Shown: positions 1,837-10,758 of the stretch, one piece after another
Numbering within the stretch: position 1 is the stretch's first letter
Layout: every line of letters begins with the position of its first letter
From: Candidatus Muproteobacteria bacterium
Lineage (GTDB): Bacteria; Pseudomonadota; Gammaproteobacteria; Acidiferrobacterales; Sulfurifustaceae
Assembly: GCA_023266455.1 (NCBI GenBank)
Contig: JAHFQD010000025.1
Location: 1 to 11,742, forward strand
Direction of reading: 5' to 3'
DNA: 11,742 nt
Made by a program: the position numbers and the translations under genes
The notes under the pieces: model-generated
What the model was told of the DNA's origin: nothing
The model's database searches: none
What the model saw: only the letters and a program-made list of their open reading frames with translations

Positions 1837-3636
1837 TTAACGAGACGCGAATAAGTCGAGCCCGACGTGCGATACCGTCTCGCGTTCCTGATCGCGCACG
1901 ATAACGTTGTCGGAAGTCATTTCCGCCGGCGGTGCCAGCAGCCCCTCTTGCGTGAGATAGCCGATGATATGTTGCACCGCGTCGGCCACGGAGAACATCG
2001 CCGTGTCGATCACGATTTCCGCGTTGATCGGCGCTTCGTACGGATCGGAGATCCCGGTGAATCCTTGAATCAATCCCTTACGCGCCCGTGCGTACAACCC
2101 TTTACGATCGCGCGATTCGCACACATCCAACGAGGTCGAAACGTGCACCTCGATGAACGCGCCATGCGGCTCGACCATCGCGCGCGCTTGCGCGCGTGTA
2201 GCCGCGTACGGCGCGATCGGCGCGCAGATAGCAATGCCGCGATGCTGCGCAATCAAACTCGCGATATAACCCAGGCGCAGGATGTTGAGATCGCGATGCT
2301 CGCGCGTAAACCCCAATTCTGACGACAGATGTTTGCGCACGACGTCGCCGTCGAGCAAGGTGACATGACGCTCTCCCTGCTCCATGAGACGCGCGCGCAA
2401 CACGCGTGCGATCGTGGATTTGCCGGCGCCGGATAAGCCCGTGAAGAACAGGGTGAAGCCGCGGCGTACACTGGTGCGGAAAGGCCGTTGCAGTTCTTGC
2501 AAAACGTTCGGATAGGAGAAACGTTGGATAATTTCGCGCACGCGATCGTCTTCGGCGCGGCGCGGATCGCGCAGCAGCACTTCCGGACAATCTTCTTCCG
2601 GAATTAAATCGCGGAACGAAATCAGACTGAGATCATGATCGTCGGCAAACCGTTCTAGCAGCGCAATGTTTTGATATTGCCCGTAGCACGATTTACCAGC
2701 CGCGCCTTCGCCGACATCGTGCGTGTCGTGCTCCGCGATCCAATGCGTGCAACCGAAGTTGCGCGCGATGATGGCGTTGAGCAAGACGCTACGCGAACCG
2801 GCTTGACGCCACGACAACGGCAACACATTCAACTGCGCGGTGTGCTTCGGATAATGCTCCATCGCCGCGCGCATCGCGCGGATGCGCGTGTAGTACGAAG
2901 GTTCCTCCATCATGCGCTGTCCAACGGCGGCGAAGACGACCAACCTCGCTCCGTGTTTCAGCGCCGCTTGACGGCTGAATTCGACGTGCGCCCGATGCAG
3001 CAAACCACGCGGCGCATAACCGATAATGTTCGCGTTGTTCTCCGCAACCAACGTCTTACGTACTTGCGCGGGCGTTTGCCGGAGTGCGGTGAAATCGTGA
3101 TACATCGGCAACTCGACGACTTCCAAACGACCGGTGATACAAACGCAATCGGAACGTTTATATAAATAGCCAACGTCCGGATGATTGCCCTGCGGCGCTT
3201 CGTAAATTCTTTCCGCTTCCAAGCGGCGATGGCGTTCGAATATTTCTTCCAACGTCAGCACCGCCACCATTACACCCTCAGAGTCACACAGCGAGATGCG
3301 TGTACCCGGCGTCCACGCTTCGGCTTTCTTCGCCGGTGTTTCTAAAACAATCGGCAACGGCCAAAGCGTGCCGTCGCTCAAATGCATGTCGTTTAAAACG
3401 GATTCGTAATCGGCGCGATTCAAAAACGTCGTCAGCGGCGAGAACGCGCCGATGGCCAGCATTTCTAGATCGCAGAGTTCGCGCGAAGTAAGATCGAGGG
3501 AAGGAAAATCACGTGCCGCGGTTTTCAACTCCGCCGCGCGTTCGGGACTGACTAGTAGGTTGTTTAGCTTTTCTCCGTAGGGTGAAGCGACGTGAGTAAA
3601 ATTTTTGTCGATTCTAGAGGCTCGCGCTTTTTTCAT
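1837..3636 (-). CDS. Fused sulfate adenylyltransferase-like / adenylylsulfate kinase
   Basis: About 599 residues with an N-terminal ATP-sulfurylase fold (about 1-385) and a C-terminal APS kinase (about 390-575). The kinase makes PAPS from APS and ATP and looks complete: P-loop GLSGAGKS at 400-407, then LLDGD, an RDLNI segment, KGLYARARKG and FTGISDPYEAP. The sulfurylase half keeps HRAH (214-217). The usual QTRNP stretch just before it reads APRGL, and the region expected to carry GRDHAG reads AEHDTHD (A301-D304 and on). That half may therefore be inactive, altered or regulatory. Domain order is that of fungal and bacterial fusions, not animal PAPS synthases. The numbering uses the ATG at 3636. 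A TTG at 3645 is a possible start, but an AGGAG at 3649-3653 fits neither ideally (12 bases from the ATG, 3 from the TTG). The protein acts in cytoplasmic sulfate activation. Catalytic status of the first half is inference. Confidence 0.9.
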   Translation of the reverse strand: MKKARASRIDKNFTHVASPYGEKLNNLLVSPERAAELKTAARDFPSLDLTSRELCDLEMLAIGAFSPLTTFLNRADYESVLNDMHLSDGTLWPLPIVLETPAKKAEAWTPGTRISLCDSEGVMVAVLTLEEIFERHRRLEAERIYEAPQGNHPDVGYLYKRSDCVCITGRLEVVELPMYHDFTALRQTPAQVRKTLVAENNANIIGYAPRGLLHRAHVEFSRQAALKHGARLVVFAAVGQRMMEEPSYYTRIRAMRAAMEHYPKHTAQLNVLPLSWRQAGSRSVLLNAIIARNFGCTHWIAEHDTHDVGEGAAGKSCYGQYQNIALLERFADDHDLSLISFRDLIPEEDCPEVLLRDPRRAEDDRVREIIQRFSYPNVLQELQRPFRTSVRRGFTLFFTGLSGAGKSTIARVLRARLMEQGERHVTLLDGDVVRKHLSSELGFTREHRDLNILRLGYIASLIAQHRGIAICAPIAPYAATRAQARAMVEPHGAFIEVHVSTSLDVCESRDRKGLYARARKGLIQGFTGISDPYEAPINAEIVIDTAMFSVADAVQHIIGYLTQEGLLAPPAEMTSDNVIVRDQERETVSHVGLDLFASR

Positions 3637-3766
3637 GAGGTCCAATCTCTCCTAAAAGGGCGTGATTACAGCGCCGTCCATGGTGCGGCGTTTACTGCCC
3701 TCGTGCTACCCCCTGAGGTATTTCCTTCTTTTTCCTTAAAGAAGCACCGCACCCGTCTTGGTATAC

Positions 3767-3800
3767 GATAATCCTTCTACTACTTCGGTATAGGATTATC
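3767..3800. repeat. Inverted repeat GATAATCC / GGATTATC
   Basis: GATAATCC at 3767-3774 is the exact reverse complement of 3793-3800, with 18 bases between. The sequence GGTATA also occurs just before each arm (3760-3765 and 3787-3792), so the arms are partly a direct repeat too. The arrangement could be a protein-binding site in the divergent promoter region. No regulator can be named. Confidence 0.35.
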
Positions 3801-3807
3801 TAGACTA

Positions 3808-3835
3808 AATCTAGCTTCGTTCTCTAAATTGACAA
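3808..3835 (-). promoter_or_regulatory. Possible promoter for the Sat-APS kinase gene
   Basis: On the minus strand TTGTCA (3835-3830, 5 of 6 matches to the -35 consensus) is followed after 16 bases by TAGATT (3813-3808, 4 of 6 matches to the -10). It would give a leader of about 165 bases. The -35 box overlaps the plus-strand TTGACA at 3829-3834. Judged from consensus matches only. Confidence 0.25.
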
Positions 3836-3857
3836 CTAAGTGAGTTAGCCTGACGAT
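3829..3857 (+). promoter_or_regulatory. Possible distal promoter for the FimX-like gene
   Basis: A perfect TTGACA (3829-3834) is followed after 17 bases by GACGAT (3852-3857), a poor -10 with 3 of 6 matches. It is weaker overall than the candidate at 3883-3910. Confidence 0.25.
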
Positions 3858-3882
3858 AAGCGGCGGTTTTCGTTGGGATTTA

Positions 3883-3910
3883 TTTGCAGTTTCCCCCTCT
3901 AAAATATAAG
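3883..3910 (+). promoter_or_regulatory. Likely proximal promoter of the FimX-like gene
   Basis: TTTGCA (3883-3888, 4 of 6) and TATAAG (3905-3910, 5 of 6) are separated by 16 bases. Transcription would begin near 3917, leaving a leader of about 55 bases that contains the ribosome binding site AAGGAGAG at 3956-3963. Confidence 0.45.
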
Positions 3911-3955
3911 TCGCCCGTGCGGCTCGACGCCTGCCCCGACGTACTAATGTTAAGT

Positions 3956-6346: not shown

Positions 6347-8023
6347 ATGTCCGGTCAATACATTTTCACCATGCATCGCGTGACCAAGATGGTCCCGCCG
6401 AACCGCGCGATCCTCAAAAATATCTCGCTGTCGTTTTTCCCCGGCGCCAAGATCGGCGTGTTGGGTCTGAACGGCTCCGGGAAATCCACGCTGCTGCGCA
6501 TCATGGCCGGTGTCGATCAAGAGCACGACGGCGAAGCGCACCCGATGCCGGGCATCCGCATCGGGTACTTGTCGCAAGAACCGCAACTTGATCCGAAGAA
6601 GGACGTGCGCGGCAACGTCGAAGAAGCCGTCGCCGAAACCAAGGCATTGCTCGATAAGTTCAACGCCATCAGCACCAAGTTCGGCGAGCCGATGTCGGAC
6701 GACGAGATGAACAAGCTGCTCGAAGACCAAGCGAAAATACAAGAAAAAATCGACGCCGCCGGCGCCTGGGAACTCGAGCGCAAGCTCGAGATCGCCGCCG
6801 ACGCGTTGCGCCTCCCGCCGTGGGACGCGGACGTCACGAAGCTCTCCGGCGGCGAACGCCGGCGCGTGGCATTGTGCCAATTGTTGCTGTCGCAACCGGA
6901 CATGTTGCTGCTCGACGAACCGACGAACCATCTCGACGCCGAATCGGTCGCCTGGCTCGAACGCTTTCTGCACGAATATCCCGGCACCGTCGTGGCGGTG
7001 ACGCATGATCGTTACTTCCTCGACAACGTCGCGGGTTGGATTCTGGAACTCGACCGTGGCGAAGGCATTCCGTGGAAAGGTAATTATTCGTCGTGGTTGG
7101 ACCAAAAAGAAAAACGTCTCGCCGTGGAAGAGAAACAAGAATCCGCGCGTCAGAAATCGCTCAAGGAAGAACTCGAGTGGGTGCGCACCAGTCCCAAAGG
7201 TCGACATGCCAAGAGCAAAGCGCGTTTACAACGTTACGAAGAACTGGCGTCGCAGGAATACGCCACGCGTAACGAGACCAAAGAAATTTTCATCCCCGCG
7301 GGTCCGCGTTTGGGCGACGTCGTCGTGGAAGCCGGCAATCTCACGAAGGGTTTCGGCGATCGCGTGCTGATCGACGATCTGTCGTTCAATCTCCCGCGCG
7401 GCGGCATCGTCGGCATCATCGGTCCGAACGGCGCCGGCAAAACCACGTTATTCAAAATGATCGTCGGTCAGGAAAAACCCGACGATGGCGATCTGCGCGT
7501 CGGCTCGACGGTTAAGCTCGCGTACGTCGATCAGTCGCGCGATTCGCTCGATGGCAAAAAAACCGTGTGGCAGGAAATCTCCGACGGCCAAGACATCATG
7601 CTCATCGGCAAAACCGAAGTGCCGTCGCGCGCGTATTGCGGGCGCTTCAACTTCCGCGGCACCGATCAGCAAAAATTCATCAAAGATCTCTCCGGCGGCG
7701 AACGCAATCGCGTGCATTTGGCGAAGCTTTTAAAGAGCGGCGGCAATCTGCTGTTGCTCGACGAACCGACGAACGATCTCGATGTCGACACGCTGCGCGC
7801 GCTAGAAGAAGCACTGCTCGACTTCGGCGGCTGCGCGGTGATCATTTCGCACGATCGCTGGTTCTTGGATCGCGTCGCCACGCATATTCTGGCGTTCGAA
7901 GACGAATCGAAGGTTGTTTGGTTCGAAGGCAACTACGCCGACTACGAAGCCGACCGCAAACGTCGCCTCGGCGTCAACGCGGAGCAACCGCACCGAATTC
8001 GGTATAAACGACTGGTGCATTGA
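6347..8023 (+). CDS. ettA: Energy-dependent translational throttle protein EttA (ABC-F)
   Basis: A soluble ABC-F ATPase that binds the ribosomal E site and gates the first steps of elongation according to the ATP/ADP level. At 558 residues it matches the family length (555 in E. coli). It has two nucleotide-binding domains. Walker A loops are GLNGSGKS (40-47) and GPNGAGKT (359-366). Signature motifs are LSGGERRR and LSGGERNR, and Walker B motifs are [12 protein letters not shown] and [13 protein letters not shown]-switches lie in THDRYFLD and SHDRWFLD. The helical arm typical of EttA lies at about 80-150 and the charged P-site tRNA interaction linker at about 255-320. There are no membrane segments, so this is not a transporter. 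It has its own TATAAT promoter and a Shine-Dalgarno 7 bases before the ATG. The C-terminus ends in the RRLG segment typical of this subfamily followed by a basic tail. Confidence 0.96.
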
Positions 8024-8226
8024 TCGCGCATTTGCGCCAATTATCGATTATGCAAACGCTTTGATTCGGCGCCTCACGCTCGTATTTTTCGGCTTGATCA
8101 CTGGCACTTGGTATATCGCCGCGCAAGCGTACGATTCCTCGGGTAACAACAGCGGATTCTTGAATGAATTGGTATACGAAGTGAACTAGGCCTGAACTTG
8201 GCGTCTGCTTATTAGTCTAAGTAAAT
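8024..8226 (+). other. ettA to small Cys-protein intergenic region
   Basis: 203 bases. A small GCGCA/TGCGC inverted repeat follows the ettA stop (8026-8037), without a T-tract. From a TTG at 8061 to a TAG at 8187-8189 there is a 42-codon open frame with one hydrophobic stretch (LTLVFFGLITGTWYIAAQAY), but it has no ribosome binding site and no ATG. I do not call it a gene. No strong promoter for the gene at 8227 is visible; TTGGCG (8198-8203) is the best -35-like box. Confidence 0.4.
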
Positions 8227-8511
8227 ATGTTCCCCGTGCTGAAACAATTCGTGGTCGTGATGGGAAGCGTTTGCGTCCTCGTCGGCAACGCGCACGCGGC
8301 GGAAACGCCGCCCTCCGACCGTGTTAAATGCGAAGGCCTTTATCTAACATCGCAGCAATGCGAAGACGCCAAACGCACCGGCAGCCTCAAAAAATCCCCC
8401 GACGTTGTGAACGGCGATAAATTCCGTTGCGAAGCGCTGTATCTCAACCAGAAAGAATGTGACAACGCCAAAAAAGGTATCGATATAAAAAACGGCACCG
8501 GCACGCGCTAA
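8227..8511 (+). CDS. Small exported protein with two Cys-x9-Cys repeats, possible bufferin-like peptide
   Basis: I do not recognise this 94-residue protein. Residues 1-24 form a Sec signal peptide (hydrophobic core and an AHA site before A25), so it should reach the periplasm. The mature part is two copies of one module, C35-C45 and C68-C78, at a 33-residue spacing: CEGLYLTSQQCEDAK and CEALYLNQKECDNAK, each preceded by D-[RK]-x-[KR]. All four mature cysteines sit in these repeats. The first module opens DRVKCEG; the mature BufA2 peptide encoded 262 bases downstream opens DKVKCEG. With the MNIO enzyme and partner genes next door, it may be a second substrate or a metal-binding partner. That is inference; the repeat and the shared opening are seen. 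The start is the ATG at 8227, which gives the best signal peptide, though the Shine-Dalgarno is weak. Confidence 0.8.
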   Translation: MFPVLKQFVVVMGSVCVLVGNAHAAETPPSDRVKCEGLYLTSQQCEDAKRTGSLKKSPDVVNGDKFRCEALYLNQKECDNAKKGIDIKNGTGTR

Positions 8512-8546
8512 ATCCCGCTTGCCGCATCGAAATTTATCGCTCCACA

Positions 8547-8562
8547 CTGACCAAACGGTCAG
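8547..8562. promoter_or_regulatory. Palindromic operator-like site upstream of bufA2
   Basis: CTGACC and GGTCAG flank an AAAC centre, giving a 6-bp inverted repeat that resembles TetR-family operators. A GATAAT box (-10-like, 5 of 6) begins 4 bases later at 8566. A repressor here could control a bufA2 transcript starting near 8578. The 8-base string CAAACGGT inside it recurs at 8702-8709. No regulator gene is in the window and no T-tract follows, so a terminator role is unlikely. Confidence 0.35.
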
Positions 8563-8601
8563 CAAGATAATACTGCTCATCGTAATACTTTACGGTAGGA
8601 T

Positions 8602-8708
8602 GCCGCACGGCGATGCCTGCTTTTCAAGGACGGAAACGAACCTGTAAGGTGCGGCCTCGGCAATCGACTAATCGTCTGGTCCGTTGTATTGCGACGCAAG
8701 ACAAACGG
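8602..8708 (+). promoter_or_regulatory. Possible structured 5' leader of bufA2
   Basis: The 262 bases between the small Cys-protein gene and bufA2 contain no gene but several inverted repeats. GCCGCAC (8602-8608) pairs exactly with 8649-8655 and encloses GGC-GAT-GCC (8609-8617) and a CG-GAAA-CG tetraloop hairpin around 8627-8643. A second hairpin pairs CCGTTGT (8681-8687) with 8701-8708 (one bulge) and TTGC (8689-8692) with 8696-8699. A promoter near 8566-8571 would place all this in a leader of about 195 bases. It matches no riboswitch class that I can name. Confidence 0.3.
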
Positions 8709-8773
8709 TACATCCGATAGTTGCGTAATGACGTAATGCATTTGTTCCACAACCTTATATTTGGAGATGACGA

Positions 8774-9037
8774 ATGTTTAATGCTAAGAAACTTACCGGT
8801 TTGGCCATTGCTACCGCTGCGGCGGGTCTTTTCGCGGCGATGCCCGCCATGGCCGCTGGCCAAGGAACGGACGACAAAGTGAAGTGTGAAGGCGCCAACG
8901 GTTGTAAAGGTCAAGGCGCGTGCAAAACCGCCAAGAATGACTGCGCCGGCAAGAACGATTGCAAAGGTAAAGGCTGGGTCTCTGTCAGCGCCAAAGATTG
9001 CAAAGACAAGGGCGGCAAGGAAGCAAAGAAGAAGTAA
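8774..9037 (+). CDS. bufA2: BufA2-type periplasmic bufferin metallophore precursor
   Basis: An 87-residue precursor of a ribosomally made, modified metal-binding peptide. Residues 1-27 are a Sec signal peptide (KK, an Ala-rich core, AMA before A28). The mature part is rich in Lys, Gly and Cys, with six cysteines at 38, 44, 50, 57, 63 and 76 in units such as NGCKGQGACKTAKNDC and KNDCKGKGWVS. This pattern is that of the BufA2 family. In bufferin systems the MNIO enzyme and its partner oxidise selected cysteines of the peptide before Sec export, and the product binds copper in the periplasm. A GGAG Shine-Dalgarno at 8763-8766 lies 7 bases before the ATG. bufB starts 54 bases downstream, beyond a perfect palindrome. 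Which cysteines are modified cannot be read from sequence, and the preferred metal is inferred from the family. Confidence 0.88.
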   Translation: MFNAKKLTGLAIATAAAGLFAAMPAMAAGQGTDDKVKCEGANGCKGQGACKTAKNDCAGKNDCKGKGWVSVSAKDCKDKGGKEAKKK

Positions 9038-9048
9038 GTGCTACGCCA

Positions 9049-9076
9049 ACCAGGTGCCCGTTAACGGGCACCTGGT
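9049..9076 (+). terminator. Perfect 28-bp palindrome between bufA2 and bufB
   Basis: ACCAGGTGCCCG (9049-9060), a TTAA centre and the exact complement (9065-9076) form a 12-bp stem, followed by ATTTAG. It starts 11 bases after the bufA2 stop. With only three T's after it, it may be a partial terminator or a stabiliser of the bufA2 3' end, either of which would give more peptide than enzyme mRNA. Confidence 0.6.
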
Positions 9077-9091
9077 ATTTAGTATCTATCG

Positions 9092-9967
9092 ATGAATCCC
9101 TCCTCTCCTGTTAATTCCGAACGCCCCTACCTTGGTTTTGGCCTGGGATTGCGTCCGGTGCATTACGAAGAAATTCTTTCGAACCCGACACCGCCGAAGG
9201 TCGACTGGTTCGAAATCATTTCCGAAAACTACATGATCCCCGGCGGACGACCGCTGCATAACCTGGATCGTGTACGTGAACGCTTCCCCCTAGTGATGCA
9301 CGGCGTCTCGCTGTCTATCGGCAGCACCGACCCCCTCGATCGCGACTATTTAAAGAATTTGAAAGCGCTTGCGGACCGCGTACAGCCGGCATGGATTTCC
9401 GATCACTTATGCTGGACTGGCGCGCACGGTACTAACATGCACGACTTGCTGCCGCTTCCCTATACCGAAGAAGCGATTCGTCATGTCGTCGAGCGCGTCC
9501 AGCAAGTTCAAGAAACGCTCGGACGGCGCATCCTGCTCGAAAACGTTTCGAGCTATCTCACGTATAAGCAGTCGGCGATGACGGAATGGGAATTTCTGAG
9601 CGAAATCGCGCGCCGCGCCGACTGCCTGATTTTGCTCGACATCAACAATATCTACGTCAGCAGTTTCAACCATGAATTCGATCCGCTCGCGTACTTAAAC
9701 GGCGTTCCCGCCGAACGCGTGCGGCAGTTTCATCTCGCCGGCCATGAACATAACGGCGACATCATCATCGACACCCACGATCATCCCATCGTCGATTCGG
9801 TGTGGGATTTGTACGCGCACGCCCTACGCCGCTTCGGCCGGGTATCGACCATGATCGAACGCGACGATCACATCCCGCCGCTGGCGGAATTGCTTGCGGA
9901 ACTGGATCACGCGCGCACGCGCGCGGATGAGACGCTAGCCGCACCGCGCGTGGCGGCGCATCGATGA
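9092..9967 (+). CDS. bufB: BufB, DUF692/MNIO iron-dependent peptide-modifying enzyme
   Basis: A multinuclear non-heme iron oxidative enzyme (MNIO, formerly DUF692) with a TIM-barrel fold. It modifies cysteines of the bufferin precursor in the cytoplasm. At 291 residues it has the family length and the family opening [12 protein letters not shown]. Conserved likely iron ligands are visible in order: H70 (MHGVS), E150-N151 (LLENVSSY), D183 and N185 (LDINNIY), H194 (FNHEFDP), H214 and H218 (QFHLAGHEH), D227, H229 and H231 (DTHDHP), and E256 (IERDDH). Exact ligand assignment is from the family pattern, not shown here. The ATG at 9092 has no recognisable Shine-Dalgarno. bufC overlaps the end by ATGA, so the two are translationally coupled. 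The C-terminal tail (about 275-291) is Ala/Arg-rich. Confidence 0.95.
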
Positions 9968-10758
9968 ACGCCTCCGAACAACCGCCGCTGGCGCAGTTGC
10001 TGGCGGAATTTCGCCGGCACTTGCTGGATCAACCGAGCGACATTCAAACGCATATCGTCGACGCCGGCAGCGTCGACGCTGCCGGCCGACTTTCGGTTTA
10101 CGCCAACGCCTATCGATCGCGCTTGCTCGAAGCCTTGGACGCGAACTATCCCGAACTGCACAAATGGCTCGGCGACGAAGAATTCCGCCGCATCGGTCAG
10201 GCTTACATCGAACAACATCCGTCGCAGCACTATTCCATTCGCTGGTTCGGTCATCGGCTGTCCGAGTTCTTGCGCGCGACCGTCCCGTGGAATGAAGAAT
10301 ATTCAATGCAAGCGCTCGCCGACTTCGAATGGGCGACGTCCGAAGTTTTCGACGCCGCCAACGCCGACGTTGTCGCCATCGACCATATCGCTTCGCTGCC
10401 GCCGCCGACGTGGCCCACTATGCGCATGCAATTTCACCCTTCGCTGCGTCGTCGGCAATTGACCTGGAACGCACCGCCGATCTGGCGCGCGCTGACCCGG
10501 AACGAAACGCCGGACGAACCAAGCGAGACGGAATCGCCGATTACCTGGATCGTTTGGCGTCAAGCGTTCGCGATTTACTATCGCTCGCTCGACGTCGACG
10601 AATCGTGGGCGCTGGACGCGGCGTTGAACGGTGCTAATTTCGCCGAATTATGCGAAGGCCTGTGCGAATGGATCGACGCCGAACACGTCGCTGCCCGCGC
10701 CGCCGGCTTCTTGCGCCAGTGGGTACAAGACGGATTGATTACCCGCGTCGACGCCTGA
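9964..10758 (+). CDS. bufC: BufC, DUF2063/HvfC-type partner of the MNIO enzyme
   Basis: A 264-residue partner protein whose N-terminal DUF2063 domain (about 8-105) shows the family pattern: [20 protein letters not shown], then [14 protein letters not shown], then LSEFL. In bufferin and Hvf systems this protein forms a complex with the MNIO enzyme and is thought to help recognise or deliver the precursor peptide. It has no signal peptide or membrane segment, so it should act in the cytoplasm with BufB. The C-terminal part (about 150-264) is less conserved and includes a [13 protein letters not shown] segment. The start overlaps the bufB stop (ATGA at 9964-9967), a classic coupled pair. A 6-bp inverted repeat covers its stop codon. 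Function is inferred from family and position. Confidence 0.92.

Follow-up and report, generated by a model that had tools for sequence, protein, structure and literature searches.

An exported-type protein with two Cys-x9-Cys modules, encoded beside bufA2-bufB-bufC, as a possible core-less relative of the bufferin BufA2

The window analysed here is an 11,742-nucleotide stretch of DNA from Candidatus Muproteobacteria bacterium, and it contains an orphan gene whose 94-residue product is probably exported and consists of two Cys-x9-Cys modules. This protein may be a duplicated relative of the bufferin precursor BufA2 that lacks the CKG core, a reading to which we give just under an even chance. 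The two leading accounts are nearly even, with the other holding the orphan to be an unrelated, exported, disulfide-rich protein of separate origin, which would use a common Cys-strand-cap-helix-Cys design and lie in a permissive ettA-bufA2 gap; this we place somewhat short of an even chance. The features on which both accounts draw are collected in Table 1.

Table 1. Features of the orphan gene and its neighbourhood, in window coordinates
Feature	Coordinates	Strand	Evidence
ABC-F ATPase, presumed ettA	6347..8023	+	ABC_tran domains; adjacency to bufA2 conserved in relatives
Orphan gene, 94 aa, two Cys-x9-Cys modules, probably exported	8227..8511	+	ORF, codon usage, repeat
Signal peptide of orphan, residues 1-24	8227..8298	+	By inspection; no match to BufA2 signal-peptide profile
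Module 1 of orphan (C35, C45)	8314..8379	+	Predicted strand 33-35 (C35), strand 38-40, helix 42-50 (C45)
Module 2 of orphan (C68, C78)	8413..8481	+	Predicted strand 65-68, strand 71-73, helix 75-82; predicted strand 59-62 before
Intergenic stretch before bufA2, 262 nt	8512..8773	+	
bufA2, bufferin precursor, Cys-Lys type	8774..9037	+	NF050166, 80.6 bits, cut-off 60
bufB, MNIO maturase	9092..9967	+	NF050167, 399.4 bits, cut-off 310; ERDD, Asp after presumed catalytic Asp
bufC, DUF2063 partner protein	9964..10758	+	PF09836, 77.3 bits

Codon usage identifies the orphan as a genuine gene and rules out an artefactual open reading frame at this position. In frame, the orphan scores 0.395 bits per codon, compared with 0.369 for bufB; the codon table was built on six window genes, of which bufB is one. 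None of 365 windows taken from non-coding frames of genes in the window reaches the score of the orphan, which exceeds that of 16 of the 73 coding windows. The start codon is preceded by a ribosome site that is weak at best. Judged by eye, the N-terminus (MFPVLKQF-VVVMGSVCVLVG-NAHA/AE) is a signal peptide, making export of the protein, as the first-pass annotation had it, likely. Cysteines are found at positions 16, within the signal peptide, 35, 45, 68, and 78.

The two modules align as DRVKCEGLYLTSQQCEDAK and DKFRCEALYLNQKECDNAK, with the local alignment of the two halves of the mature protein scoring 65, a value equalled by none of 5000 shuffles (best 40), and the two Cys-x9-Cys modules stand where they had first been placed. 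Nine of the 20 aligned codons specify identical residues, with synonymous differences in four of the nine pairs, which argues that the repeat is not recent and has been kept at the protein level.

The likeness to BufA2 begins at the start of the mature protein, where DRVKCEG of the orphan matches DKVKCEG of BufA2 in six of seven residues; shuffling both mature proteins gives this identity in 14 of 3000 trials. The codons of this motif differ at four of the seven positions, and the earlier observation of a nearly identical start written in different codons is borne out. The score of the local alignment between the orphan and BufA2 is only marginal, being equalled or bettered in 446 of 5000 shuffles. 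Recent duplication of bufA2 was considered as a source of the orphan and discarded, as the codons differ and the likeness is limited to a short stretch.

The likeness also extends further than had been noted, with the second half of the module resembling the end of BufA2. This emerged from a tblastn search in which module 2 matched the BufA2 end in relatives (LYMSKAECDAAQ, E 4), and the idea of a core-less frame is an after-the-fact one because it came from this chance match. The BufA2 sequences used for profiles were collected by a motif requiring C-x-G and C-[KR], so that BufA2 column counts are biased by the C-[KR] that the motif itself asks for, and two repeat-rich oddities, L109 and L110, were left out of model building. 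The uncut BufA2 profile gives the orphan an E value of 140. A first cut of the core, keeping one more column than the best cut, gives E 2.1, and in each of three shuffle kinds no more than 1 of 3000 does as well. Both halves contribute some signal: for the half around the first Cys 25 of 3000 repeat-keeping shuffles are as good, and for the half around the last Cys 16 of 3000. The best of 351 cuts joins x-x-V-K/H-C-x-G directly to [LV]-x-M-[ST]-K-x-E-C-D, and scores 28.3 bits with 102 rows and 28.1 bits with 101 rows, the organism's own BufA2 being omitted from the latter. When the maximum over all 351 cuts is taken for shuffles in which the repeat and Cys positions of the orphan are preserved, this score is reached by 0 of 2000 with 102 rows and by 0 of 2000 without the own BufA2, whilst a set of 17 rows (near relatives, with the own BufA2 and G045 included) gives 21.1 bits, with 4 of 2000 shuffles as good.

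In a search of 14,063 stop-to-stop ORFs, from which 105 BufA-like ORFs had been removed beforehand, a core-cut profile of 101 BufA2 sequences, excluding both the own BufA2 and the orphan, gives the orphan 27.8 bits and an E value of 1.7e-6 that is uncorrected for the choice of cut, with the next ORF for this best cut at E 0.14. The orphan also has the highest total score over the 351 cuts, followed by L109 and L110 (Legionella CKG repeats, 23.5 and 21.5) and a BufA1-like ORF of L162 (18.7), all of these runners-up being bufferin-type by eye. The shuffle result for the best of 351 cuts, and the matching of both ends of BufA2 in the right order in a protein encoded beside bufA2, argue against a separate origin of the orphan.

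The strong score, however, hangs on one exact cut, as indicated by the E value of 2.1 obtained with one more column and by a scan of 91 cuts without the best one, which yields 11.4 bits at most (3 of 200 shuffles as good); shifting the cut by one column takes the score from ~28 to 11 bits. Furthermore, the 27.8 bits are a sum over two related modules, of 16.8 and 9.2 bits, and as the best single match over all cuts the orphan (16.8) comes second to a BufA1-like ORF (16.9) and is followed by an ORF of L064 (16.3). An orphan-free frame profile of 37 rows, run against 369 genomes, gives module 1 an E value of 0.0103 within the own genome and 18.2 bits, which makes it the best of the matches that span both Cys, with the next at 17.5, 17.5, and 17.3 bits; module 2 does not appear among the matches up to E 0.5. 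Of the 369 genomes, 82 contain some match within this limit, many covering the last-Cys half only, and in the loci checked, which were found with a like profile, such matches are mostly BufA2 ends. The frame match in the whole-genome search is not significant, and it gains weight only because the orphan stands beside bufA2. Both the dependence on one exact cut and a single module lying near the chance ceiling in 369 genomes favour an unrelated protein. Convergence may also account for the likeness, given that the helix start [ST]xxECxxxG is present in another exported protein, L202, and that Pfam returns for the orphan a trefoil match (PF00088) below threshold, at 18.2 bits against a cut-off of 21, which likewise favours a separate origin.

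The orphan is a lineage-restricted protein. A search among 5.77 billion proteins scored two candidates and returned only the orphan itself, whose own database entry is one member sequence on three contigs, and a wider search, with 28 candidates scored, ended likewise at E up to 10; these large searches need shared five-letter words and therefore miss remote relatives. Among 96 genomes, comprising the organism's own and 95 relatives, the orphan is present in its own genome only, and tblastn against the loci fetched from relatives gave nothing significant. For a profile of the two modules the best other match in 369 genomes has E 0.003 and falls in a frame with stops, with some match at E up to 1 in 69 of these genomes. 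NCBIfam gave a single weak and irrelevant match, with none to the BufA2 model NF050166 at E up to 1, PHROGs gave 0 families, and the single matches from plasmids and, by sequence, from solved structures have E values of 0.4 and 0.62 respectively. That homologues were not found in the protein and 96-genome searches is a further point in favour of an unrelated protein.

Predicted structures bear on the same choice. The AlphaFold2 model of the orphan, made with no alignment, is of low confidence (pLDDT 61.7), as is that of BufA2, made from 43 sequences (pLDDT 60.9). Both modules of the orphan are predicted to follow one order of strand, strand, and helix (Table 1), whilst the BufA2 model has strand 35-39 (C38), helix 48-51, strand 68-72, helix 73-78 (C76), and strand 82-84. 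Compared by secondary structure, these low-confidence models agree in the order of elements and in where the first and last Cys fall, with the CKG core modelled as a loop between the two strands of the frame, and this agreement between predictions speaks against a separate origin. A Foldseek search of solved structures with the orphan model returned 207 matches at E up to 10 and none at 0.001.

Twin Cx9C (CHCH) proteins form a hairpin in which each Cys pair lies within a single helix. The presence of two Cx9C motifs within one small exported protein would suit a bacterial CHCH-like helical hairpin, however the model assigns a strand to the first Cys of each pair and a helix to the second, albeit at a pLDDT of 61.7, and solved structures provide no match, and we regard this assignment as very improbable.

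The first-pass annotation had raised the possibility that the orphan is a second precursor modified by the same MNIO enzyme. This reading appears unlikely on the combined evidence of cysteine context, BufB type, signal peptide and neighbourhood, and as an account of the orphan we consider modification by BufB-BufC distinctly improbable. Its attraction lies in the position of the gene beside bufA2BC and in the D-x-V-K-C-E-G start of the protein. It is also in keeping with the available part of PMC12452194, in which bufferin clusters can have tandem precursor genes, and small exported Cys ORFs directly before precursor-less MNIO genes are thought to be precursors. However, the four mature Cys of the orphan are followed by E, E, E, and D, none by Lys, and the CKG core of BufA2 is absent, with the BufA2 rows having CKG motifs after the first Cys; the mature part has four cysteines, where BufA2 has six conserved cysteines and the core. 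BufA2 belongs to the Cys-Lys group, for which Asp251 of BufB2 has been modelled on the substrate Lys (PMC13097082, in part). The BufB of the window reads ERDD where 3bww reads ERDF and therefore fits the Asp type, an assignment made by alignment to 3bww, and this too counts against the orphan as a substrate. FonBC, an enzyme of another group, shows no processing when a charged residue follows Cys (PMC13097082, in part), which also weighs against modification of the orphan, but bears only indirectly on the BufB of the window because the unprocessed set includes Cys-Lys substrates.

The signal peptide is a further point against modification. For Buf1 there is preliminary evidence of a part for the signal peptide in recognition by BufB-BufC (PMC12452194, in part). 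A BufA2 signal-peptide profile built from 42 sequences gives the own BufA2 24.0 bits and the orphan -1.9, and the orphan does not have the type K..G.A.A.AAA.LF; as two further exported proteins, the BufA1 encoded in this genome (-0.5) and an unrelated one (0.0), also fail, the profile says "not BufA2-like" and no more. Additionally, although the orphan gene adjoins the bufB-bufC cluster, bufA2 intervenes between it and bufB, and the 15 relatives with ettA and bufA2 together lack the orphan.

The genes downstream were correctly recognised as bufA2-bufB-bufC, with matches to NF050166, NF050167, and PF09836, bufC scoring 42.2 bits against the HvfC model NF050145 (cut-off 142), and the orphan does lie just upstream, 262 nt before the start codon of bufA2. 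A scan of the intergenic stretch shows no terminator-like or sigma-70-like site, and the stretch folds with a z of -0.74. Words common to the regions upstream of 8227 and of bufA2 are matched by 33 of 40 shuffles, and this lack of a common regulatory word favours an unrelated protein.

The ABC-F ATPase gene upstream, which we take to be ettA, occurs together with bufA2 in the own genome and in 15 relatives, 14 of the same family (G002, G003, G004, G005, G007, G008, G009, G011, G013, G014, G015, G017, G018, and G019, the ettA of G018 being a more distant copy with 70% identity) and one of the same order (G045), with the orphan gene absent from all 15. L050 was excluded from this count, its ABC-F match having only 28% identity, and G001, G012, and G016, of the same family, have ettA without bufA2 within the fetched stretch. 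In 13 of the 15 relatives the ettA and bufA2 matches are 213-421 nt apart, measured from where the first ends to where the second starts, compared with 1058 nt in G004, 1194 nt in G007, and 754 nt in the window. The gaps of those 13 hold mechanical ORFs of up to ~80 aa, none of which is related to the orphan by tblastn. As this neighbourhood is common to relatives without the orphan, closeness to bufA2 says little on function, and the location of the orphan is explained by the older ettA-bufA2 neighbourhood; position was therefore rejected as evidence of a Buf role. Different, unrelated exported-looking ORFs lie between ettA and bufA2 in G004 (L118) and G007 (L126). The gap thus seems to accept new genes, as the reading of the orphan as an unrelated protein would expect.

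Among known systems, the closest comparison is with Buf2 (NF050166), the Cys-Lys captophorins. The orphan is likewise of exported type with its gene beside bufA2BC, and has a V-K-C-x-G start and an end segment [LV]-x-M-[ST]-K-x-E-C-D-x-A that resemble, and may correspond to, the frame segments of BufA2, with the predicted order of strand, strand, and helix in common, however it differs in having no CKG core, four mature cysteines compared with six, the frame twice, and another signal peptide, and it is missed by the BufA2 family model at its cut-off of 60 bits. The 12-Cys Buf2 proteins with a duplicated domain, described in the available part of PMC12452194, resemble the orphan in the internal duplication of a bufferin unit, but keep the six-Cys unit twice, whereas the orphan has the unit without its core twice. 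A BufA2-like precursor with extra Cys units was also seen in a Methylophilaceae MAG (L053).

DUF2282 BufA1 proteins have, as the orphan does, a KCxG start and a Cys-x-x-A some ten residues on, but also two further Cys that the orphan lacks, and neither Pfam nor NCBIfam matches the orphan to the DUF2282 family. In the organism's own genome (L162, contig C370 of G000, 2479-3951), two tandem DUF2282-like bufA1 ORFs were recognised by eye behind a sigma-factor-like ORF, with weak matches to the BufA2 model. The trefoil family shares the Cys-x9-Cys spacing with the orphan in the matched stretch, however the match covers only positions 4-24 of 43.

If the orphan is a core-less BufA2 relative, its two modules, arranged in tandem and each a strand-strand-helix unit with a single Cys pair, would each correspond to the BufA2 frame, with the strand of the first Cys joined to the second strand and the helix of the last Cys, and the CKG loop gone. 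A bufferin precursor would have lost its core and then undergone internal duplication. The first Cys of Buf1 is joined to the last by a disulfide whilst the central Cys are modified (PMC12452194, in part), and the same pattern is carried over to Buf2 by analogy. We infer that the orphan, exported by Sec, would have its Cys oxidised to two structural disulfides, with the pairing C35-C45 and C68-C78 a guess, and would not be modified by BufB. It would then form a stable periplasmic scaffold offering the same surface as the bufferin frame, with no copper in thiooxazoles, and could, as one example, pair with the bufferin or its partners. The fuller proposal, that an emptied and doubled bufferin scaffold has been kept as a non-RiPP periplasmic protein working with the bufferin or the maturation complex, as docking partner, competitor, or chaperone, we consider doubtful. 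Core-less bufferins are not mentioned in the parts of PMC12452194 and PMC13097082 available to us.

Descent from a bufferin would imply that the frame and the RiPP chemistry of bufferins can be parted, the core being an insert between two strands whose loss leaves a disulfide frame still of use. The orphan would then be a natural unmodified reference for what the bufferin frame does, and a warning in genome mining that nearness to an MNIO gene does not by itself make a small exported Cys protein a substrate. An unrelated orphan would matter only as a reminder that function should not be read from gene neighbourhood.

Three further observations concern other parts of the window. A perfect 12-bp hairpin at 9049-9076, between bufA2 and bufB, is terminator-like and is perhaps a partial terminator setting the precursor above the enzyme; the single match from Rfam, below threshold, falls on it. 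Between ettA and the orphan, 8061-8189 may encode a 42-aa small membrane protein with a TTG start; its score of 0.349 bits per codon is matched or exceeded in 11 of 610 non-coding windows, and it has no relative in the fetched loci. On the minus strand, 1837-3645 encodes a fused sulfate adenylyltransferase and APS kinase (PF14306, PF01747, and PF01583).
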